Assembly (NCBI GenBank): GCA_013697245.1 | Contig: JACCXH010000044.1 | Location: 1-64,000, forward strand | DNA length: 64,000 bases | From: Bacteroidota bacterium | Lineage (GTDB): Bacteria > Bacteroidota > Bacteroidia > B-17B0 > Aurantibacillaceae | Direction: 5' to 3' | Shown: in pieces, positions 1 to 56,261 of the stretch | Layout: each line of letters starts with the position of its first letter | How positions within the stretch are numbered: the stretch's first letter is position 1 | The notes under the pieces: model-generated | What the model was told of the DNA's origin: nothing | Seen by the model: only the letters and a program-made list of their open reading frames with translations | Databases searched by the model: none | Position numbers and translations under genes: made by a program

Positions 1-584
1 CAACCTAATAAGGTTGGTGCAACAGCACGTCTTTACTTTTATTAAAAATGCTTTATATAAATTTAAAATAACCCTGCTAAATATATTTTATCCGAAAATA
101 TTTGTTGGACTTATTGAGTGAACCCTACTTAAAGCTTCTGTAACTAGAATCAAACATAACAGAAGATAGCTTGTATTTCAATAATTCTAGCTATTTTAGA
201 ACATCAATTGAAACTCATTTTAGGCAAATGCTAAAACTAATTCGAATAAATCATTGGATAAAAAATTTGTATGTATTTGCTCCGTTATTTTTTTTTCGGG
301 CCAAATGACTAATTCGGAAAAACTATTACAGCATCTCTATTAATACACAGCTCTTTAAACTTATTTATACTAAGATTTAAATACAAATCTGAAATAACAA
401 TAAGAATAATTATTTTATTATTTGTTTTTTGCCAAAAAAAATTTTTGACAATTACAATAAATTTAAAGTGCTAAAAAAGTCAAAAAGTATCAATTTGAGT
501 TAAAAAAATTGAAAGAATTAGATTAATAAACAATTTTATGATATTGCTTTTAAGCACTTAAATTATATTAGAATTATACTTAGA
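1..584. other. AT-rich intergenic region with gene relics
   Basis: No intact gene is visible. Frame 1 of the plus strand is open from the window edge to a TAA at 43-45, so the first 15 codons could be the 3' end of a gene lying outside the window; I do not recognise the product. Positions 1-16 form a 6-bp hairpin (CAACCT/AGGTTG) without a T-tract. A prenyltransferase relic lies at 228-343 and is listed separately. From 344 to 584 the sequence is very AT-rich and I see nothing coding. Confidence 0.5.
228..343 (+). pseudogene. Relic of UbiA-type prenyltransferase (N-terminal fragment)
   Basis: The ATG at 228 opens 26 codons reading MLKLIRINHWIKNLYVFAPL followed by FFFRAK and a TGA at 306. This closely resembles the N-terminus of UbiA-family decaprenyl-phosphate phosphoribosyltransferases, which start with a motif like LLRPxxWIKNxFVFAPLFF. 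In the +1 frame the similarity continues at 302-340 (QMTNSEKLLQHLY), matching the next family segment, and ends at TAA 341-343. The gene is thus frameshifted and has lost about 250 residues. Family assignment is from recognised motifs; a short functional peptide is very unlikely. Confidence 0.6.
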
Positions 585-2534
585 CTATCTCTCTGATTTA
601 ACAAACTCAACAATTAATTTTTTTTTCTGATGTCTTTTAGTATGAAAATAAATTCCATTTTCGGGAATTATCAAGTCTTCTTTAAAAGGAGTTGTAATAA
701 CATACTTATTTTGTCCCAGCGAATCTAAAATCATTCTTTCATTTACTTGAAATAAATAAGAGTCAAAAACAATTACCCCTCCAATATCTTCATGCGCACT
801 TGCAATCTTGCCATTAAGATCTTTTAATTGTGTTGTATGATTTGCAAATTTTGTAACTATAAATTTACTTCCATTTTTATCATTTAGAAACATCTTGCCA
901 TCATCAGATAGTTTTAAATATTTATTTTTATCTACTTTCATTTCAACAGTATCAATCCATACAATCCTATCCTGAACCCCTTTTACTTTAACTATACTTG
1001 TATCTTTTAAAATATCCGAAGGTAGTTTTCCATCGTCAATAATGGCGATTTTATATTTCTTTACTTTTGCCAAATTAATTTCAAATCTGTTTGGGATCTT
1101 TTGGTATCCTATATAATCGGTATAAAACATAAGCTTGACAAAATCAATATCATCACAATTAAACACTACATATTTTTCCTCTTTAAATTGCTTACTCATT
1201 TCTTTACAAGTGTAGAGCCAATCAATATTATGATTCCGAAAATTATGAAGTCCAAAATCCTTTTTTTGCCAAACTGTATGATTTTTTTGAAACTCTTCTA
1301 AATTGCATATGGAAATAACTGCATAAATTATAAGGCCAACAAAAAAAGTTTTTTTAATTGAATGAGAATGTATTTTAAGATAATTATATAATTGTTCTGC
1401 AATTGCTCCAAACCCGAGGAAAAAAACAAAAAAAACAATAAATGGAAAGCCAAGCATTTTAGTTGCGACATTAGTAAAAAATACATATACGATTACAAGA
1501 ATAGATATATAACTAATAAACATTTTTTTGTCTTTTATGAATTTGTTTAATAATATTATGCCAAATAAAATAAAAAATGGAGCCAGATATCCAATTACAG
1601 TTTCAATACCATCCATATAAAAAAAAGAATCACCTTTATGGCCGTCTAGTGGCTCGATAATGTGTTTAACATTAAAAGAATGCTCATAAGCTGCTTCTAA
1701 AGGAAAACGTATATATATATATATTTGCCAAACAAGCGGTAAAATTATTGCCAAACAAAAAGTTTTAAAAATATTCAGCCAGTCTTCTCTATACTTTTTA
1801 AATGTATTCTTTTGTTGAAGTAAATAAACAAACCATATACCGAAAACAAGGTAACCCGGTAACCATTTCGTTAGAACTGCAAATGAGCTAAATAATGCAA
1901 TCAGCAACATCCATTTAAAAACCCTCTCCTTTTTCTGATACTCAGTGTAAGCCCAGACACTGGCAATTATATAACACATAAAAATAATATCATTATGATC
2001 TGTTGGCAAAGCACCAACTATTAACACATTAAAAAAAGAATTCATACTAAATAGTAGGGCCCCAATAAACCCAATTCGCTTAGTAAGAGTATTCTCGCCA
2101 ATTTTATAAATGCAAAATGTTGCAAATGTAATACACAAAACGCTTGGCAATCTTACAGCAAATGCTGAAGACCCAAGTAATTTAATGCAAATAGCCATTT
2201 GCATTAGAAAAAATGGTTGTTTGTGCACCCATATATAATTAGACGTCCATGACCTGTAATCATAATGCAAAATAGGATCTGTATATAGTTTTGGGAAAAA
2301 GAAGTTTTTTGAAAGATTTTTCGCAACTAATGCATGATATTGTTCATCCCACAAATTAATATATTCATCGACAGAAATAACGAAAATCTTAAAAATAAAT
2401 GTTCCAAGTAATAAAAACAAAAGAGCAAAAGTTTGCTTTCTATTGAATTCGAATAGAAAAATAGAAATAAAATAAAATAAAAATGAACAAACAATTAGTA
2501 TCTGTTGGTAAGGAAGAAAATAGCTATCTAACAT
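585..2534 (-). CDS. GT39-family membrane glycosyltransferase (ArnT/PMT-like)
   Basis: The 649-residue protein has about ten hydrophobic segments in residues 8-450 and a soluble C-terminal part of about 200 residues. The first extracytoplasmic loop carries Asp63-Glu64 (LWDEQYHALVAKNL), the acidic pair typical of GT39/GT-C enzymes, followed by HKQPFFL at 104-110, like the ArnT KPPL motif. Such enzymes move a sugar from a polyprenyl-phosphate carrier to lipid, glycan or protein on the periplasmic side of the inner membrane; substrate cannot be predicted. It begins 38 nt after the scoB relic and is the last gene of the long minus-strand run. A (TA)7 tract at 1710-1724 lies inside the gene and encodes IYIYI. 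Confidence 0.8.
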   Translation of the reverse strand: MLDSYFLPYQQILIVCSFLFYFISIFLFEFNRKQTFALLFLLLGTFIFKIFVISVDEYINLWDEQYHALVAKNLSKNFFFPKLYTDPILHYDYRSWTSNYIWVHKQPFFLMQMAICIKLLGSSAFAVRLPSVLCITFATFCIYKIGENTLTKRIGFIGALLFSMNSFFNVLIVGALPTDHNDIIFMCYIIASVWAYTEYQKKERVFKWMLLIALFSSFAVLTKWLPGYLVFGIWFVYLLQQKNTFKKYREDWLNIFKTFCLAIILPLVWQIYIYIRFPLEAAYEHSFNVKHIIEPLDGHKGDSFFYMDGIETVIGYLAPFFILFGIILLNKFIKDKKMFISYISILVIVYVFFTNVATKMLGFPFIVFFVFFLGFGAIAEQLYNYLKIHSHSIKKTFFVGLIIYAVISICNLEEFQKNHTVWQKKDFGLHNFRNHNIDWLYTCKEMSKQFKEEKYVVFNCDDIDFVKLMFYTDYIGYQKIPNRFEINLAKVKKYKIAIIDDGKLPSDILKDTSIVKVKGVQDRIVWIDTVEMKVDKNKYLKLSDDGKMFLNDKNGSKFIVTKFANHTTQLKDLNGKIASAHEDIGGVIVFDSYLFQVNERMILDSLGQNKYVITTPFKEDLIIPENGIYFHTKRHQKKKLIVEFVKSER

Positions 2535-2572: not shown

Positions 2573-2689
2573 TTAAATTTTCATCTCAGTAATTGTGCCA
2601 TTTATAGTTAATTTGTCAGCTGTTGCATTTTTTATCTTATCAACACTAATACTAGTGACTCTATCTAATAATTTTAAGTGTCTTTTCAT
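2573..2689 (-). pseudogene. Relic of the scoB 3' end (CoA-transferase subunit B C-terminus)
   Basis: Reading minus from an ATG at 2689, 38 codons end in TAA at 2573-2575. The peptide contains LKLLDRVTSISVDKIKNATA and ends DKLTINGTITEMKI. The intact scoB at 3777-4433 ends FKLLERAPGISVDEIKNATA then GKLIVEGDIKEMSI. Length, order and stop position match with about 60% identity, and the similarity is visible in the DNA too. Upstream of the ATG the frame closes, so this is only the last 12-15% of a scoB gene. It lies just beyond the GT2-DUF2304 pair and so brackets it together with the intact copy. Confidence 0.8.
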
Positions 2690-2725
2690 TGAGTAGGATG
2701 TTCTTTAAAAAAAATTTAGTTGTGA

Positions 2726-3058
2726 TTATAAAGATTTTTCTTTTAATAACGATATTTCCTGTGCCAGTTTTTTAATTTGATCATGTTGTTTTGAGTTAAC
2801 AACTGATAAATGAATTAAAAAAATGAATATCATAAAAAAGAAAAATATGAAAATTAGTGATGGTGCATAATACACACCAAAAAAATTTGCTAACATATCC
2901 AAACTCTGCCTCCAAACCGAAAACACCAAAAAGATAACTGCCATTAATCCCCAAATAATTGAATATTCAGTTCTTAGTTTTCCTTTCATTATAAAACGGG
3001 TAATTAATCCTATAAAAAATAACACAGCAATTATTGCTATAATTTGAATTTTATCCAT
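2726..3058 (-). CDS. DUF2304 family small membrane protein
   Basis: A 110-residue protein with three hydrophobic segments (about residues 5-24, 33-50 and 66-88) and a charged, probably coiled C-terminal tail ending in KKLAQEISLLKEKSL. The RTEYSIIWGLMAVIFLVFSV segment is characteristic of DUF2304 (COG2456), small inner-membrane proteins nearly always encoded next to a GT2 polyprenyl-phosphate glycosyltransferase. Its ATG overlaps the end of the GT2 gene by 8 nt, indicating translational coupling. The likely role is an accessory to sugar transfer onto a lipid carrier; this is inferred from context, since no biochemical function is established for the family. Confidence 0.8.
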   Translation of the reverse strand: MDKIQIIAIIAVLFFIGLITRFIMKGKLRTEYSIIWGLMAVIFLVFSVWRQSLDMLANFFGVYYAPSLIFIFFFFMIFIFLIHLSVVNSKQHDQIKKLAQEISLLKEKSL

Positions 3059-3767
3059 TTGACCTCATTTTTAAATGTAAAAAAATCGAATTTAAAGAAA
3101 CTTTTACCATATAATAAATAGTTGAAAAACTTTTAATAGATGAGACACCCATAAGGCGTTCATTCATAACAACAGAAACTTCTTTAATTTTTAATCCTTT
3201 GTGAACTAAATAAACAATTGCCTCAGGCTCTGGATATTCATCTGGATAGTATTGGATGAGTTCAAGAATTGCTTTCTTATTATAAGCACGATAACCTGAC
3301 GTGGGATCCTTAATGGAAGCTCCAACTAAGAATTTATTTAAATGTGAGAAAAAATTAATTCCAAATCTTCTTAATGGCGATGACTGAAAACCTATTTTAT
3401 CAATAAAACGAGATCCAATAAGAACATCTGCTTCCTTATTAAAAAGAGGCGTTAATAATTTATTTAATTCTTTTGGCGGGTGCTGGCCATCACCATCAAT
3501 TTGAACCGCGAAATCAAAATTATTTTCTTCTGCATACATAAACCCAAGCTGGACAGAGCCACCAATGCCAATATTAATAGGGTTATCGAGAAATTTTACT
3601 TTCATCTCGGTAAGTTTTTCGTATGTGGAGTCGGTAGAATGATCATTTATAAATAAAGGTGAAATAGAACAGCCTTCCAATTTTAACATCTGAAGTTCAT
3701 AATACAACGGGGCAATATTTTCGGCCTCATTATAACAGGGTATAATTATTAATACTTTATGATCGAT
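3051..3767 (-). CDS. GT2 glycosyltransferase (DPM1-like), apparent non-AUG start
   Basis: The protein has the GT-A nucleotide-binding start KVLIIIPCYNEAEN, then DGQHPP (DxD-like region), IGSRF and DPTSGYRAYNKKA, typical of polyprenyl-phosphate sugar transferases. The first ATG-like codon usually chosen (TTG at 3707) would remove the essential PCYNEAEN motif. The frame is open back to the TAA that terminates scoB (3777-3779), yet contains no ATG, GTG or TTG there. The best start by family length is ATC at 3767, giving (I/M)DHKVLIIIPCYNE and 238 residues. Non-AUG initiation coupled to scoB termination, a mutated start, or a consensus error (ATG to ATC) are all possible. It overlaps the DUF2304 gene by 8 nt. 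Confidence 0.75.
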   Translation of the reverse strand: MDHKVLIIIPCYNEAENIAPLYYELQMLKLEGCSISPLFINDHSTDSTYEKLTEMKVKFLDNPINIGIGGSVQLGFMYAEENNFDFAVQIDGDGQHPPKELNKLLTPLFNKEADVLIGSRFIDKIGFQSSPLRRFGINFFSHLNKFLVGASIKDPTSGYRAYNKKAILELIQYYPDEYPEPEAIVYLVHKGLKIKEVSVVMNERLMGVSSIKSFSTIYYMVKVSLNSIFLHLKMRSNG

Positions 3768-3776
3768 CTTATTAAA

Positions 3777-4433
3777 TTAAATACTCATTTCTTTAATATC
3801 ACCTTCAACAATTAATTTCCCGGCAGTTGCATTTTTAATTTCATCAACACTAATTCCGGGCGCGCGTTCTAATAACTTAAATCCGCCACCTGGTACAATT
3901 TCATATACACCCAATTCAGTAACGATTTTTTTCACGCATTTAACTCCTGTTAATGGCAAGTCACATTTTGATAATAGTTTAGATTGGCCTGCTTTATTTA
4001 CTTGTTGCATTGCTACGATAATATTCTTTGCGCTGGCAACAAGGTCCATAGCGCCACCCATGCCTTTAACCATTTTACCGGGTATTTTCCAATTGGCAAT
4101 ATCACCATTCTCACTCACTTCCATTGCTCCAAGTATGGTTAGGTTTACTTTTTGCGAACGGATCATACCAAAACTCATGGCGCTATCAAAAATACTTGAT
4201 CCCTTAAGCAAAGTAATTGTTTGTTTACCGGCATTAATAAGATCGGCATCTTCTTTTCCTTCCTCAGGAAACGGCCCCATCCCTAGTATTCCATTCTCCG
4301 ATTGAAGCACCACATTAATACCATCGGGAATATAATTGGCAACCAATGTTGGGATTCCAATCCCTAAATTAACAAACATACCATCTTTTACTTCCCTGGC
4401 AATTCTTTTCGCTATTCCGTTTTTATCTAACAT
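3777..4433 (-). CDS. scoB: 3-oxoacid CoA-transferase subunit B
   Basis: The 218-residue protein carries the catalytic motif SENGILGMGP, with Glu46 expected to form the acyl-glutamyl intermediate, plus GIGIPTLV near the N-terminus. It matches the usual length of bacterial subunit B (about 215). With scoA it would transfer CoA from succinyl-CoA to an acetoacetate-type 3-oxoacid in the cytoplasm (ketone-body/butanoate metabolism). Unusually, its partner scoA is not adjacent: an MBOAT gene and its partner lie between them. The ATG sits 2 nt after the stop of the preceding gene. A diverged copy of its last 38 codons lies at 2573-2689. Confidence 0.92.
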   Translation of the reverse strand: MLDKNGIAKRIAREVKDGMFVNLGIGIPTLVANYIPDGINVVLQSENGILGMGPFPEEGKEDADLINAGKQTITLLKGSSIFDSAMSFGMIRSQKVNLTILGAMEVSENGDIANWKIPGKMVKGMGGAMDLVASAKNIIVAMQQVNKAGQSKLLSKCDLPLTGVKCVKKIVTELGVYEIVPGGGFKLLERAPGISVDEIKNATAGKLIVEGDIKEMSI

Positions 4434-4435
4434 AA

Positions 4436-5476
4436 TTAATAGGCTTTTATATATTCTTTTGAAAATTGATTTTTTAATGAGTTGGCCAAATTTTTAGCGA
4501 TTATCATTCTTCCTTTATAACCGTAATGTTCAGTCGTCCAGGTTTGATCTGTAAATTCACTCCCGTTTATCAATTCTAAATTATCTACAACAACACAGTT
4601 ATTTTTATTGTATCTTTTTATTAAGTAATCGCGATTTTGCCTCATTAAAAATACTAATTCTTTACCAACTAAACTATCTGCATATTCTATATTTTCGGCT
4701 AATAAATTAAGGTATAAATTGATGTTGTTCTTGTTACACCATTCTGCAATTTCATCAAAATCTTTAACGCGTGGATTATTTTCGTTTAAATTGAACGCAT
4801 ATGCCTTTATGTAATGACAAGTTAAAAGTATTTTATTTTTTTCAGGACTATCAGGCATATCCCAGCCATACTGACCATAGGATACATCCCAATCTCTTAC
4901 TGTTTTATATTTGAAATCAAAAGGGAAAACCAATTTTACAGTTTCCCAATCGTCCAACATTTCTTTAGTGCGTTGCTCCTCTGTTTTATTATCAAAAGCC
5001 TGGAGAGATAATAAAAAACGATTTACCAGGTTGGGATAAGGCTGCGTCAAAACCATAGATTCCTGCAATTGCGTCTCTAAATTAGAATGTATCCAGGCGG
5101 CATCAAACGATCGCATATTTAGTGTAACAACAATTGCTTTTGGTTTTTTTCTTTTTAAACTAATATTCTTTAACCAAACTTTATAAATTCCAGCATGTGT
5201 TGCGGGCTTATTTATTGAAGTTAGTTTTAACGAAGGAAAGAACATACCTGTCATCTCAGAGATCATGTACTGTATAGAATCACTTTCCCTTGTATTAAAG
5301 TTGGATGACTCTGCAAAATAAAAAATATCAGTACTATCTTGTTTTTTCCTTATTTCAACAACTTGTTCGCACTTTTCATAAAGGTCTTTTTTGTATAAGG
5401 TAGCATCATAAATAAAATTTAAGCCAATTAAAATTAAAATTAGCATGAAAATTTTTATGATAATTTTTTTTGCCAT
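4436..5476 (-). CDS. SGNH/DltD-like partner of MBOAT acyltransferase
   Basis: The start at 5476 is preferred over an in-frame ATG at 5560: it forms a TAATG overlap with the MBOAT stop, and the protein then begins MAKKIIIKIFMLILILIGLNF, a single N-terminal membrane anchor. The remaining 320 residues look periplasmic. FYFAESSNF at about residues 53-61 occupies the place of the nucleophile-bearing block in DltD/AlgX-like SGNH proteins, and a late TEHYGYKGR could supply the distal His; the catalytic assignment is inference. MBOAT genes of the AlgI/DltB/PatA type are commonly paired with such proteins, which pass the acyl group onto an extracytoplasmic glycan. The acceptor is unknown. It lies 2 nt before scoB. 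Confidence 0.7.
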   Translation of the reverse strand: MAKKIIIKIFMLILILIGLNFIYDATLYKKDLYEKCEQVVEIRKKQDSTDIFYFAESSNFNTRESDSIQYMISEMTGMFFPSLKLTSINKPATHAGIYKVWLKNISLKRKKPKAIVVTLNMRSFDAAWIHSNLETQLQESMVLTQPYPNLVNRFLLSLQAFDNKTEEQRTKEMLDDWETVKLVFPFDFKYKTVRDWDVSYGQYGWDMPDSPEKNKILLTCHYIKAYAFNLNENNPRVKDFDEIAEWCNKNNINLYLNLLAENIEYADSLVGKELVFLMRQNRDYLIKRYNKNNCVVVDNLELINGSEFTDQTWTTEHYGYKGRMIIAKNLANSLKNQFSKEYIKAY

Positions 5477-6879
5477 TAAAACTGGAAATAAATGAAGGTG
5501 AATTTTTGAGTGCCCGACAATGCCATTAAACAAAATAGTATAACTGTGTAAAACGCCCAACGGTAGGGTGTTTTAAAGGTAGCTAGTTTTTTATCAAACC
5601 TTGAATTATATAATAATATATCAAAAAAGATCATGACAGCTACAAAAACTAATGGTATAACAACATTGATCTTTTCAACGGCTTGATTATTTGTTAGTAA
5701 CGCAGTAAATATTTCTTTTACTTTTTCAAAACTCTCGGCCCTAAAGAACACCCAGATAAATGATGTAATAATAAATGTTTTTAAAACCAAAAGCACATTT
5801 ATTAAAGTCCATCCTTCTTTTATGCCGAAATTAAAAAGTTTAGAAAAAAACCTTTCCAATAAAAGCATTAAACCATGTAATGCACCCCAAGCTACAAATG
5901 TCCAACTGGCGCCATGCCACAATCCGCTTATTAAAAAAACTATTAAAATATTTAAACTCCATCGTGGTAATTTAACTCTATTACCGCCTAATGGAATGTA
6001 TAAATAATCCCTGAACCATGTGCTTAACGAAATGTGCCAGCGCGACCAAAACTCAGAAACACTTTTTGACAGGTAGGGTGTTTTAAAATTATCCATAATG
6101 TTTATACCCAGTAATCGAGCACTTCCCAAAGCAATAGTTGAATAACCGAAAAAATCAGCATAGATCTGGAATGAGAATAAGAACATACCAGATAAAATCC
6201 GCAACGAATTATATTTTAATGGCTCGGCATATATTTGATTAACGTATGGCGCAATATTATCTGCAACTGCCATTTTAATAAACAGGCCGAATAAAATAAG
6301 CCGAAACCCATCGGCAAAATTTTGATAAATAGGTTTATGTTCTGTCTTTAATCCTGTTCCAAGTGTTTCATATCTTTCAATTGGGCCGGCCACCATTTGC
6401 GGAAAGAATAAAACATAATTTGCAAAATAGCCCAAATGTCTTTCTGCTTTTTGTCTTCCCTTAAATACTTCAATAGTATAGCTCATTGATTGAAAGGTGT
6501 GGAAGGAAAGACCAATAGGTAAAATAACGCTTAAATTTATAGGGTGAATATCTTTCCCAAATAAGGAAAACAAAGTAGTTATATTTTCATTTAAGAAATT
6601 AAAATATTTAAAGAATGCCAGCAGGCCAATATTAGCAGTTAAACTGGCAATTAGGTAAAACAATTTTAATCGCCCGTTTACTTTTTCAATTGTAAGCGCC
6701 GCAAAATAATCAATAACAATAATTAAAAATAAAATAAGAATATATTTTGGAACGAATACCATATAAAAATAGCAACTGGCAATAAAGATGAGTATCCAGC
6801 GAAATTTTTGAGGCAATAAATAATATAATCCAACAACAATTGGAAGAAATAATAAAAAATGTAAAGAGTTAAATAACAT
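5476..6879 (-). CDS. MBOAT family O-acyltransferase (AlgI/DltB-like)
   Basis: This 467-residue polytopic protein has about ten membrane segments and the MBOAT signature: FWSRWHISLSTWFRDYLYIP (His282) followed by GLWHGASWTFVAWGALHG, with His322 the expected catalytic histidine and a second conserved His335. Members sit in the inner membrane and pass an acyl group, usually acetyl, from the cytoplasm to an extracytoplasmic acceptor through an SGNH-like partner, encoded here immediately downstream with a 1-nt stop/start overlap. The start lies 3 nt after scoA. Its position inside the sco gene pair is unusual; whether the CoA-transferase influences the acyl-CoA supply is speculation. Confidence 0.9.
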   Translation of the reverse strand: MLFNSLHFLLFLPIVVGLYYLLPQKFRWILIFIASCYFYMVFVPKYILILFLIIVIDYFAALTIEKVNGRLKLFYLIASLTANIGLLAFFKYFNFLNENITTLFSLFGKDIHPINLSVILPIGLSFHTFQSMSYTIEVFKGRQKAERHLGYFANYVLFFPQMVAGPIERYETLGTGLKTEHKPIYQNFADGFRLILFGLFIKMAVADNIAPYVNQIYAEPLKYNSLRILSGMFLFSFQIYADFFGYSTIALGSARLLGINIMDNFKTPYLSKSVSEFWSRWHISLSTWFRDYLYIPLGGNRVKLPRWSLNILIVFLISGLWHGASWTFVAWGALHGLMLLLERFFSKLFNFGIKEGWTLINVLLVLKTFIITSFIWVFFRAESFEKVKEIFTALLTNNQAVEKINVVIPLVFVAVMIFFDILLYNSRFDKKLATFKTPYRWAFYTVILFCLMALSGTQKFTFIYFQF

Positions 6880-6882
6880 TTT

Positions 6883-7596
6883 TTACTGCTTTTTTCTCAC
6901 AGTCCTTTGCTCTATTCGTTTTTCGTATTTTTGTCCCTGGAAAATTCTGTGAACATAAATTCCCGGAGTGTGAATCTGATCAGGATCTAATTCGCCGGCT
7001 GGCACTAATTCTTCTACCTCAGCAATAGTAACTCTTCCGGCCATAGCCATCATTGGGTTAAAATTGCGGGCTGTACTTCTATAAATTAAATTACCGGCAG
7101 TATCACCCTTCCATGCTTTTACAATAGCGAAATCAGCTTCAAAAGCTTTTTCCATTAAATATTCTTTTTCTTCGCCATTAAACATAAATTTCCTGGTTTC
7201 TTTACCAATGGCAACCTCTGTGCCTACACCTGCTGGCGTAAAGATCACCGGCATACCGTAACCGGCAGCCATACAACGTGTAGCCAATGTACCTTGTGGC
7301 ACCAATTCAACCTCCAATTCGCCACTTAACATCTGACGTTCAAACTCATCATTTTCGCCAACATAGCTAGAGATCATTTTTTTTATTTGCTTTGTTTGAA
7401 GCAGTAAGCCCAATCCAAAATCATCAACACCGGCATTATTACTAATACAAGTCAAGTTTTTTATACCCATTTTTACCAATTGTGCGATACTATTTTCGGG
7501 AATACCGCATAAACCAAAGCCACCCACCATTAAAGTATTTCCATCTTTAATATCCTTTAAAGCTTCTTCAACATTTTTTACAACTCTATTGATCAT
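6883..7596 (-). CDS. scoA: 3-oxoacid CoA-transferase subunit A
   Basis: The 237-residue protein contains the CoA-binding glycine motif [12 protein letters not shown] at residues 25-36 and later [10 protein letters not shown], both typical of CoA-transferase family I subunit A; length is normal. With ScoB it forms the heteromeric succinyl-CoA:3-oxoacid CoA-transferase. The start lies 1 nt after the PBP1A stop, so it looks translationally coupled to a peptidoglycan synthase gene. The partner scoB is about 2.4 kb downstream after the MBOAT pair. The function is well supported; the gene order is what is odd. Confidence 0.92.
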
Positions 7597-30966: not shown

Positions 30967-32979
30967 TTATCGACTGATCACTTTAAATTCAACCCTTCTA
31001 TTCAATTGACGTCCTTTGGCTGTAGCATTTGTTGCAATTGGTTTTGATTCTCCATAATCTTTTAAATTCACATGGCTTTCTGCCACACCAATTTTATCTT
31101 TAAGGTATTTTGCAACAGATTCAGCTCGCTTATGCGATAATTCGTTATTATATGAAGCGTTACCAATATTATCTGTATGACCCGAGATCTCGACCTGCAT
31201 GGTTGGATTTTCTTTTAAAATGGTTGCCAACCGTTCTAATTCATAAAACGATTCTTTTTTTAATTCGTATTTATCAAAATCAAAAAAGATATTGTTGATG
31301 GCAATTGTTTGTCCTTCTTCAATTGGTGCAATGTAAAGGTCTTGCGTCATTTCTTTATATTCAGATAATTTACTTAGGTCCATATTTGCGTTAACAGAAA
31401 TAAAACCTTTTTTCTCGGCCAGGTAACCATAATTATTTCCTGATGGAAGCACAATGGCATATTCGCCGGTTGTTGGATTTGATATGGCAATACCGGCTTC
31501 TTTTCCGTTGGCAAGGTCTTCAAAAAATATCCGTACTCCCGAAACAGTTTCATTGGTTTTGCTGTTAAGTACTTTTCCTCTTACCAAAACCACAGGTGAT
31601 GGTTTTAATGTTTTGGGCAAGGCAAGCGAATAAAGATCAAAGTCTCCCGGAGTCTCACTTTCAGAGGTAAAATAAACCTTATTGCCGGAGGCAGATGTTG
31701 TAAAAAAAGATTCGTTATTAGACGTGTTTACTTTTGGGCCTAAATTTTCCGGCTCTGTCCAATTGGTCCAGCTGTCATCCAAACGGCGTGTCATATAAAC
31801 ATCGCTTCCACCATAACCTGTTAAACCGTCTGATGTATAATAAAGTGTTCTATCGTCAGCTGCTAAGAATGGCGCTGTTTCGGTGCCCTTTGTATTTACT
31901 TTTGGGCCAAGATTAATTGGTTTTGTCCAGGTGCTGTCTGCTTTCATTGTACTTACATAAATATCCAGGCTTCCATAATTGTTCTTTTTTATTTCCTGCG
32001 CCATTAATAAATATTTTTGGCTGTTTGAAAGGTAATAGGCCACAAATTCGCTCCTGTTAAAATCATCATCAATTTTCACAGTTTGCGGAAAGCTCCATCC
32101 CGTTGGTGTTCTATGACTTATAGAAACTCCCTGGCGCATTGACCCGTCGATACTATATTCGTTACCTAACAAAATAGTATTGCCATCCGGTGAAATTGAG
32201 TTTATAAAATTTGGATATTTATTATTTAAAGGAGAACCAATATTTTTTGCTTCGCCCCAGGTATTATTTTTATTGTCCCACTCTGCATACCAAATATCTT
32301 CATCATCATCTTTACCTCCCACATTTCCGGGATCGCGATAACGACTAAAATAAAGTGTGTTACCGTCAGGCGAGATCATTGGTCCCATTTCCGGATACTG
32401 GCTATTTACACCACCGGTTAATTTAGTGGCTATCATATTTGATTTAACCATATCTGATTCGCTTAAGGTGATCTGCATTGGTTTATCGGATTGTAAAATA
32501 CCAATGGCATCAATGGCTACAGCCACATCTTTGACAGATTGGAACATGATCTTTACCGCAGCTATTTTAAAATCAATAGCAGAGGCGTCAATATTTAAGA
32601 GCCTGCTACCGTTCAAACTTTTTTTAAAGGTATAGGAAGTCACTTCTTTTTCGTGATCCAACGAATCATACGCAAAAACTTTACTAATGAAACCAGGGTG
32701 ATTTGATTCTCCCACCAAAATATATTTTGATCTCATGGGAGTTAAAAAACTTACTTTAATGAACTCCACTTTTTCGCCGGTGCCTTTTGGTTCCCATGCA
32801 TTGGCATTTTTACCGTTGCGTGGTAATACGTTTGGTCTACCCAGTACCTGTTTTGCAGAGAATTCAGCAGTTCCAACCTGCGATGAGAAATCGACTACTT
32901 TATAGGCCCATTGTACATTTTGCGAAAAAATAAAAATTGGTAGAGATAATACAAGGACTAATAAGATAATTTTTTTCAT
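30967..32979 (-). CDS. OmpA-family protein with PD40 beta-propeller (PorE-like, lacking TPR)
   Basis: 670 residues with signal peptide MKKIILLVLVLSLPIFIFS. Residues about 20-150 form a discoidin-like beta domain, followed by TolB/PD40-type propeller repeats (GNTLYFSRYRDPGNVGGKDD, LYYTSDGLTGYGGSDVY), a carboxypeptidase-regulatory-like beta domain (VRGKVLNSKTNETVSGVRIF) and a C-terminal OmpA domain (VEISGHTDNIGNASYN ... LSHKRAESV) that binds peptidoglycan. The propeller-CRD-OmpA order is that of PorE in T9SS, but the N-terminal TPR domain is replaced. It probably resides in the periplasm or on the inner face of the outer membrane. Confidence 0.82.
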   Translation of the reverse strand: MKKIILLVLVLSLPIFIFSQNVQWAYKVVDFSSQVGTAEFSAKQVLGRPNVLPRNGKNANAWEPKGTGEKVEFIKVSFLTPMRSKYILVGESNHPGFISKVFAYDSLDHEKEVTSYTFKKSLNGSRLLNIDASAIDFKIAAVKIMFQSVKDVAVAIDAIGILQSDKPMQITLSESDMVKSNMIATKLTGGVNSQYPEMGPMISPDGNTLYFSRYRDPGNVGGKDDDEDIWYAEWDNKNNTWGEAKNIGSPLNNKYPNFINSISPDGNTILLGNEYSIDGSMRQGVSISHRTPTGWSFPQTVKIDDDFNRSEFVAYYLSNSQKYLLMAQEIKKNNYGSLDIYVSTMKADSTWTKPINLGPKVNTKGTETAPFLAADDRTLYYTSDGLTGYGGSDVYMTRRLDDSWTNWTEPENLGPKVNTSNNESFFTTSASGNKVYFTSESETPGDFDLYSLALPKTLKPSPVVLVRGKVLNSKTNETVSGVRIFFEDLANGKEAGIAISNPTTGEYAIVLPSGNNYGYLAEKKGFISVNANMDLSKLSEYKEMTQDLYIAPIEEGQTIAINNIFFDFDKYELKKESFYELERLATILKENPTMQVEISGHTDNIGNASYNNELSHKRAESVAKYLKDKIGVAESHVNLKDYGESKPIATNATAKGRQLNRRVEFKVISR

Positions 32980-54284: not shown

Positions 54285-56261
54285 TTATTTGGCTAAAACT
54301 TTAAACTCTGTGCGCCTGTTCCTGGCCTTGTTTTCAGGCGTATCGTTCTTTACCTTCGGTTTAAGGTCGGCATATCCTTTGTATTTTAAACGGGCCGCAT
54401 CGATCTTACTTGTGGTGATCAAATAATCATATACCGATTTAGCACGATTTTCGGATAATGTAATATTATTCTTTCTTATACCGTCGCTATCCGTATGCCC
54501 GCTCAATTCAATTTTAAGTGTAGGGTTCTTGGTTAAAAAAGATCCAAGTTTATCCAATTCTGCTTTACTTTCAGGTTTAAGGTCCCATTTATTTACGTCA
54601 AAGAAAACGTTCTTTAATTCCACTACGCTTCCTGTATCAATTGGATCTAATGGAATATCCAATAAAAAAGGTTTTGTAAAATCGGTTACTTTTCCTTTTA
54701 AGCTAAAGTTATCGCTGTAAAATAAAAAACCATCTTTATTTACGTTTACTAAATAGTTTTTATTAGCAGTAAGCGTTATAAAAAACTCGCCATTCTTTTG
54801 CGTGTATGATTTTGTAACCGATTGCTGCGTTTCAAGATCTAACAATTCAAAACTTGCTTCTAGGGTCTCTTTTGTTTTTGAATTATAAATTTTGCCCTTT
54901 ACATAGGTAATTTTTTCAGGCCTAAGATCTTCCGGTAATTCAAACTGGTAAATATCCAGTTTACCAAAACCACCAGGTCTGCTGCTTGCAAAGTATGCCA
55001 AATTACCGGCAGGATCTACCAATAAGCTATTCTCGTCTTCAAATGTGTTAATAGGGTAACCTAAATTTACTGCCGGCCCCCAATCACCATTTGGTTGTCG
55101 TTTGCTCATAAAAAGATCTGTACCACCCATTCCGGGATGACCATCACTAGCAAAATAAAGTGTCATATTATCAGGATGAATAAAAACAGATTCTTCGTTA
55201 CCTGTTGAATTGACATTTGTATTAAGTTTTACGGCAGGTTTAAATTTTCCATCATCACTAATCACGCTCATATAAATATCCACATCTTTATTCATACCTC
55301 CTCTTCCCCTAAACCCCTTAATAAAATAAAGGGTCTTTCCATCGCTGCTAAAACTTGGCTGCGTTTCCCAATTAGCACTATTTATGGCTTCACCGGCGTT
55401 TCTTGGGCGCGTCCATTTTCCATTTATTTTTTGAGAATAAAAAATATCGCAACTGCCGGCACCTTTACGTTCAGGTGAACCATAATCGCCAAACTGATCA
55501 GAGCAGGAAGCAAAGAACATGATGTTACCATCAGATGATAAAGTTGGCGCGCCTTCGTTACCTGTGCTATTTATATTTGTTATTGGTGTGGCAGTTTGCC
55601 AAACGTTGTTTACCTTATCACTGGTATAAAAATCTTCGTTGAACTCTCCTGGCAAATCTGCTCTTGGAAGCGCTCTTGTGAACATAAATTGTTTACCATC
55701 ACCTGTAATAGCGGGAAAATATTCTCCATTCTCTGTATTGATACCTTGGCCAACGTTAACAGGTTTAAAAGGTTTTGGGTTTTTGATCGCCTCTTCGCCA
55801 AACTTAGCGTTCACTAAAAATTGTTGCGCACTCTCTTTTGTGTTAGGGTTGATGCGGTCAAACTTTAAAAATATTTCCAGATTGGTCTTTGCTTCTCCAT
55901 ATAATCCGGTAGCTAATTGCGACAAGGCTAAAAAATAAAAACTGCTCGGAAAAAATTTCGGATTGATCTCGATTGCCTTTTTAAAATAAGTAATTGCTTC
56001 GGAATGCCTGCCTGTAACCTGATACAAATTTGCAAGGCCTAAAGCTGCTTCCACAAAATTTTTGTCTTCTTCTAAAGCTTTTTTTAAATTCTTTTCCGCA
56101 ACATCGTCTTTTTTAACTTCATAAGCGGCTTTACCTTCTTCCAGATACTTAATAGCCTTTTTATTAGTACTGGTGTATTGGCCCGGAGGCATCTGACCCT
56201 GGGCATAATTAAAATTAAATACAAAGGTCAAACAAATAACTATTATCCGTCTTAAAAACAT
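54285..56261 (-). CDS. PorE-like T9SS-associated OmpA-family protein (TPR, propeller, CRD, OmpA)
   Basis: 658 residues: signal peptide, TPR repeats (about 35-150, AAYEVKKDDVAEKNLKKALE), PD40/TolB propeller (about 170-455; GNIMFFASCSDQFGDYGSPE and similar), a CRD-like beta domain (VKGKIYNSKTKETLEASFEL) and C-terminal OmpA domain (KIELSGHTDSDGIRKNNITL). This is the full domain order of PorE, which links the T9SS machinery to peptidoglycan. It has a shorter relative at 30967-32979. Other OmpA/WD40 proteins of Bacteroidota share this layout, so PorE orthology is not certain. Confidence 0.82.
   Translation of the reverse strand: MFLRRIIVICLTFVFNFNYAQGQMPPGQYTSTNKKAIKYLEEGKAAYEVKKDDVAEKNLKKALEEDKNFVEAALGLANLYQVTGRHSEAITYFKKAIEINPKFFPSSFYFLALSQLATGLYGEAKTNLEIFLKFDRINPNTKESAQQFLVNAKFGEEAIKNPKPFKPVNVGQGINTENGEYFPAITGDGKQFMFTRALPRADLPGEFNEDFYTSDKVNNVWQTATPITNINSTGNEGAPTLSSDGNIMFFASCSDQFGDYGSPERKGAGSCDIFYSQKINGKWTRPRNAGEAINSANWETQPSFSSDGKTLYFIKGFRGRGGMNKDVDIYMSVISDDGKFKPAVKLNTNVNSTGNEESVFIHPDNMTLYFASDGHPGMGGTDLFMSKRQPNGDWGPAVNLGYPINTFEDENSLLVDPAGNLAYFASSRPGGFGKLDIYQFELPEDLRPEKITYVKGKIYNSKTKETLEASFELLDLETQQSVTKSYTQKNGEFFITLTANKNYLVNVNKDGFLFYSDNFSLKGKVTDFTKPFLLDIPLDPIDTGSVVELKNVFFDVNKWDLKPESKAELDKLGSFLTKNPTLKIELSGHTDSDGIRKNNITLSENRAKSVYDYLITTSKIDAARLKYKGYADLKPKVKNDTPENKARNRRTEFKVLAK

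Follow-up and report, generated by a model that had tools for sequence, protein, structure and literature searches.

A decayed second scoB 3′ end in a Bacteroidota genome, probably left where two versions of a gene-turnover locus were joined

The stretch of DNA analysed here, a 64,000-nt window on contig C21 of a 4.44 Mb assembly (genome G000; the other G numbers denote relatives from its family or genus), carries the end of one gene in two copies. The gene is scoB, which encodes 3-oxoacid CoA-transferase subunit B; its final 33 to 38 codons are present twice, 1.2 kb apart, and the genes for a GT2 glycosyltransferase and a DUF2304 membrane protein lie in between, as an earlier reading of the sequence alone had claimed (Table 1). 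The scar is real, and the second tail is a decayed copy of the scoB end. We consider it likely that G000 holds a joint between two versions of one turnover locus, produced by one illegitimate join. One version would have run scoB-GT2-DUF2304 and onward, the order present today in G013 and G023; the other would have run scoB-GT39, the order present today in G009. Joining the DUF2304 end of the first version to a point about 33 to 50 codons before the scoB stop of the second would yield one complete scoB and a functionless scoB tail that has decayed since, and homologous recombination in the shared flanking genes would complete the exchange. We infer both the single illegitimate join and this route of entry.

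Table 1. Features of the scoB locus in the G000 window (strand: -, minus; +, plus;., none assigned).
Feature	Position	Strand	Basis or remark
scoA, 3-oxoacid CoA-transferase subunit A	6883..7596	-	TIGR02429, 261 bits (cut-off 128.5)
MBOAT acyltransferase, between scoA and scoB	5476..6879	-	PF03062, 100 bits
SGNH-like gene, conserved, between scoA and scoB	4436..5560	-	Label given by us; ORF start mechanical; gene present in relatives
scoB, 3-oxoacid CoA-transferase subunit B, intact, 218 aa	3777..4433	-	TIGR02428, 313.5 bits (cut-off 243.6); PF01144
GT2, polyprenyl-phosphate-sugar synthase type	3051..3776	-	PF00535, 67 bits; PDB 5mlz, E 3.5e-16
DUF2304 small membrane protein, 110 residues	2726..3058	-	PF10066, 93.6 bits
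Spacer, with the joint in or beside it	2690..2725	.	scoB match no better than shuffles
Decayed second scoB 3′ end (relic)	2573..2689, solid over ~2576-2674	-	tblastn, blastn, shuffles
GT39/PMT_2-type membrane glycosyltransferase, frame intact	585..2534	-	PF13231, 64 bits
UbiA prenyltransferase 5′ remnant, frameshifted	228..340	+	Only match to UbiA in the assembly

Read in the direction of transcription on the minus strand, the locus consists of scoA, MBOAT, the SGNH-like gene, scoB, GT2, DUF2304, the scoB relic and GT39. Open reading frames were called mechanically, and the clusters of downstream genes used for comparison with relatives were formed by blastp at 1e-8. The SGNH-like gene had no Pfam or NCBIfam match, and GT39 is assigned by Pfam only, as PMT_2-type. 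GT39 starts 38 nt past the stop of the relic, and the contig ends 584 nt beyond GT39, which puts the far side of the locus out of view. Position 1 of the window is the contig end; contig C3, which ends about 1 kb after its purQ gene at 75806-76483, may adjoin it.

The ungapped comparison of 3777-3893 with 2573-2689 gave 74 identical nucleotides out of 117. Within the window, scoB and the relic share 21 of 33 residues by tblastn (E 3e-7) and match by blastn at E 1e-9, and none of 1000 shuffles of 2535-2725 reached the observed score (257, against a shuffle maximum of 249). A chance match, one of the explanations that could have undone the sequence-only reading, fails. With scoB as the query, the whole 4.44 Mb assembly returned two places only, the intact gene and the relic, the latter at E 1.2e-4. 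The stretch of solid homology is about 2576-2674, and blastn extends it to 2729; the 36 nt adjoining the DUF2304 stop matched the scoB tail no better than shuffles did. The tail length of 38 codons first proposed therefore stands for 33 of them, the remainder being less solid. Microhomology at the joint was not above that of shuffles, and the joint can be placed no more closely than in or beside these 36 nt. For a control, 50 window ORFs of at least 120 aa were taken and their C-terminal 40 residues compared with the window; besides scoB, one similar ORF pair (36% identity) was recovered, and the N-terminal 40 residues of the same 50 ORFs gave zero second copies in the window. The ORFs at 30967-32979 and 54285-56261, both on the minus strand, have a C-terminal stretch in common at 36% identity, perhaps a shared domain.

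The second tail is also rare. A scoB match was obtained in 83 of the 87 genomes of the family set, and a second tail in G000 alone at E up to 0.01, a threshold that more decayed tails would escape. When 40 scoB tails were run by tblastn against the downstream stretches of the 40 genus genomes (G000 and the 39 relatives for which the scoB surroundings were fetched), a second tail appeared solely in G000; blastn on the same stretches added short scattered hits outside G000, all at E 0.001 or worse. No second scoB tail (E ≤1e-4) was seen in 80 loci from named genomes, a sample that partly overlaps the G set and contains some loci cut by contig ends; the nine nearest named records are all metagenome-assembled. 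A plasmid collection contained 90 matching records, and among the 20 listed, even the best match spans no more than 22% of the query, those with an annotation being scoB-type genes. Elsewhere in the family, scoB of G015 is split across two contigs, and G060 has a second partial scoB match that spans residues 1-142.

Downstream of scoB lies a gene-turnover hotspot, probably one related to the sugar coat: its gene content differs between relatives beside conserved flanks. The first ORF of at least 80 aa downstream of scoB fell into 13 classes across 39 of the 40 genus genomes, G000 included; G033, with 6 nt remaining after scoB, was left out of this count. The largest classes were the GT2 cluster (11 genomes) and F5 (11 genomes), a short protein with no Pfam match. 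Family F2 or F9, which by eye are purQ and the gene of a HerA-like ATPase, was located within 9 kb after scoB in 17 of the 40 genomes, several of the others being cut by contig ends. Twenty proteins of the region from relatives were scanned against Pfam. Nine had no match and three contained PMT_2; the other families were GT2, DUF2079, HAD, methyltransferase, UbiA, acyltransferase and polysaccharide deacetylase, and one protein was AlgX-like, below the family cut-off. Mobility families were absent from these 20 proteins. Upstream of scoB, MBOAT and the SGNH-like gene were present in 22 of the 28 genus genomes with scoA in view and were not found in the other 6; a second variable slot may thus exist between scoA and scoB. 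The sco operon as a whole might then serve surface-glycan genes as an exchange site with two slots, one in the scoA-scoB gap and one after scoB, at which lineages would swap glycosyltransferases by ordinary recombination in the sco genes and so come to a lineage-specific glycan type. G000 would then represent a half-finished swap, with GT2-DUF2304 and GT39 side by side. We put this wider proposal forward as speculation that we doubt more than we believe.

Both proposed parental arrangements exist in close relatives. A species tree was built with FastTree from four window neighbours, scoA, PBP1, RodA and PBP2, as far as these had been fetched. G000 adjoins G013, G003 and G031 in this tree, the sister clade consists of G009 and G012, and G023 and G032 follow; support for G013, G003 and G031 as a group apart from G000 is only 0.60. 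In G013 and G023, scoB is followed by GT2, DUF2304, F10, F12 (HAD) and F13 (methyltransferase) and then by UbiA and an acyltransferase, with an MBOAT gene and another gene preceding UbiA in G013; neither genome has a second tail. In G003 and G031, scoB is single and leads directly to F10, the GT2-DUF2304 cassette being absent. In G009, scoB is followed by GT39 after a spacer of 36 nt, compared with the 38 nt between relic and GT39 in G000, and the two GT39 proteins are 64% identical. About 125 nt of a GT39 5′ end remain after scoB in G012 at the same distance (0 of 200 shuffles as good), and 41 nt of a GT39 5′ end lie between scoB and GT2 in G023 (0 of 5000 shuffles as good). To judge from the G009 order, the G012 remnant and the G023 stub, GT39 was probably an early neighbour of scoB in this clade and was displaced by GT2-DUF2304 at least in G023. 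Since scoB-GT39 and scoB-GT2-DUF2304 are both extant, we read G000 as a joint of the two versions. Two further traces that had been suspected by eye, one of GT39 in the G013 spacer and one of GT2 in the G031 spacer, were rejected, as 617 and 628 of 2000 shuffles, respectively, equalled them. The sequence-only reading had asked for relatives that lack GT2-DUF2304 and have one scoB, and G003 and G031 fit that description. It had also held that a cassette always present without a duplicated tail would count against it; G013 and G023 do have the cassette and no second tail, and the "always" fails with G003 and G031.

As to which half was resident, we lean slightly to GT2-DUF2304 as the resident and to the scoB tail with GT39 as the newcomer. 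The intact scoB 3′ end of G000 is 83-84% identical to those of G003, G013 and G031, and the 5′ part 84-86%; the two parts have similar nearest relatives, with synonymous sites near saturation. The 3′ end, having an affinity similar to that of the 5′ part, gives no sign of foreignness, in a test that is weak because the more distant G019 is equally close to the G000 3′ end (83%). Had the cassette supplied a fresh scoB end and stranded the previous one, a shift of affinity would be expected in the intact tail, and this weak test did not detect one. In blastn (E 1e-31 to 8e-25), window positions of about 45-405 matched G003, G013 and G023 over the UbiA start and the DNA preceding it. The UbiA remnant shows agreement at 77-81% of aligned bases, and intact UbiA starts agree with one another at 82-83%. 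F10 and F12 had no match in the G000 assembly, and F13 had a single 28% match on another contig. By gene content, G000 resembles a G013/G023 block whose middle part has been replaced, GT2-DUF2304 remaining at one end and the UbiA remnant at the other.

Evolutionary distances were less easily read. GT2 dN is nearly equal in the three pairs of G000, G013 and G023 (0.086, 0.096 and 0.106; for G000 and G013, dN 0.086 and dS 1.37), DUF2304 dN likewise (0.066, 0.066 and 0.070), and the ratio of GT2 dN to SGNH-like dN in these pairs is 0.70, 0.68 and 0.66. This constant ratio was considered as proof of a resident cassette and was downgraded to a weak hint, because PBP1 and MBOAT disagree with it. In PBP1, G000 is far nearer to G013 than to G023 (0.028 vs 0.069), and by such other yardsticks GT2 does not behave as a simply inherited gene. 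MBOAT dN is larger between G000 and G013 (0.122) than between G013 and G009 (0.082), contrary to the tree of the neighbouring genes; an exchange may therefore have affected the upstream side as well. The relic itself was of little help as to its origin. Its best tail match was 79 of 117 nt (G018), followed by 76 for both G009 and G032 and 74 for G000, values too flat to point to a donor, and nearest-tail identity was dropped as a guide. In the tree suggested earlier, likelihood placement of the relic was flat: the 40 best positions differ by no more than about 1.5 log-likelihood units, and they include those beside G000, G009 and G012. Decay has gone further in the relic than in the UbiA remnant; a single simultaneous replacement would therefore need a diverged donor, or else there were two events.

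The opposite direction, proposed in the sequence-only reading, is a special case of the two-version joint: a relative would have supplied a scoB-GT39 ancestor with GT2-DUF2304 and the scoB 3′ end attached to it, one side entering through homologous recombination in scoB and the far side through an illegitimate join, and the old tail would have stayed beside GT39. Within the joint we give this direction slightly less than an even chance, and overall we hold it possible but clearly less likely than not. GT39 is old beside scoB, as G009, the remnants in G012 and G023 and the tree indicate, which leaves room for a resident GT39 and an incoming cassette; the greater decay of the relic, the existence of a relative with the cassette beside scoB (G013) and GT2 distances unlike those of PBP1 agree with this. 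Against it are the like affinities of the 5′ and 3′ parts of scoB, on the weak test above, the lack of an especially close GT2 or DUF2304 donor among the genomes compared, and the requirement that F12, F13 and most of UbiA were lost separately. What fits in that reading is recombination in a locus of glycan type; cassette gain as its direction does not follow. An event within one genome would involve no foreign DNA at all: a tandem duplication that copied a scoB segment and then mostly deleted the second copy would also leave a duplicated 3′ end, and partial scoB copies do occur in the family, as in G060. Such a duplication would leave unexplained why the two halves are alternative scoB neighbours in relatives and why G023 has a GT39 stub, and we judge it rather improbable.

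Two other accounts seem to us very improbable, and about equally so. Some elements integrate at icd in E. coli and bring their own 3′ end of the gene, and an element with its own scoB 3′ end might likewise have inserted at scoB by site-specific integration and lost its integrase later; a new gene end next to a displaced old one is the expected footprint. The search for tyrosine recombinases (PF00589 only, in 8 genomes, contig ends hiding some neighbours) gave 11 matches in G000 and none on C21. The earlier statement that no integrase is present is thus borne out for this family up to the contig end, 584 nt past GT39. In seven relatives, the only PF00589 matches on the scoB contig were those of G012, about 39 kb away, and of G013 and G032, over 400 kb away, and the lack of mobility families in the 20 scanned slot proteins speaks against integration as well. 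The relic might alternatively be a small gene of 38 codons with an ATG that has been kept, rather than debris. Its frame is open and has a start codon, and codon positions 1 and 2 account for a 0.43 share of its changes against the intact G000 tail, a value just mildly higher than in intact pairs with 30-34 differences (mean 0.36, maximum 0.5). Against this account, no counterpart was found among the 39 genus relatives.

The joint of two locus versions, our preferred reading, makes the scar an instance of an ordinary process class that is already published. Gene-turnover hotspots without mobile elements, with recombination at flanking core genes, were described by Oliveira et al. (2017, PMC5635113). 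The scoB locus resembles the hotspots described there in having variable genes beside a conserved gene, no integrase in sight and a content that varies by relative; theirs are within species, whereas the variation here is between species of one genus. In Vibrio cholerae T6SS effector arrays, gene ends are displaced in a manner akin to homology-facilitated illegitimate recombination (PMC5361080), and the displacement of rhs C-terminal ends is comparable (PMC2935791). As in those accounts, the conserved gene keeps a complete end, and another 3′ end or neighbour lies further down. In these sources the displaced parts are effector ends and immunity genes, of which some persist; at scoB, where homology on one side may have helped the join, the displaced part is the tail of a metabolic enzyme and is debris-like. 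If the reading is true, alternative gene sets of different species have been physically joined in G000, and variability of the locus would come from recombination between relatives and not from loss alone. The locus after scoB would then be one in which to search a Bacteroidota group for switches of glycan type.

The genes between the two scoB ends suggest what one of the gene sets does. The best PDB match of GT2 is 5mlz, a dolichol monophosphate mannose synthase, and judged from the sequences the GT2-DUF2304 pair likely makes a lipid-linked sugar for a membrane transferase. A DUF2304 gene that immediately follows a gacI-type GT2 has been described for GacI-GacJ of the streptococcal Group A carbohydrate (PMC8327497). 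The present pair has the same order, a GT2 of the lipid-linked-sugar type and then DUF2304; it differs from the pair in that source in belonging to another phylum, in having scoB and GT39 as neighbours and in being known from its genes alone. The GT2 frame continues directly after the scoB stop and contains no in-frame ATG, GTG or TTG ahead of the first strand; GT2 of G013 also lacks a usual start, though dN lies far below dS. One possibility is a rare start codon, ATC or ATT, which would occupy the same position in G000, G013 and G023. DUF2304 of G000 is slightly shorter than its counterparts, which have 115 to 123 residues in the nine other genus genomes with the gene in view.
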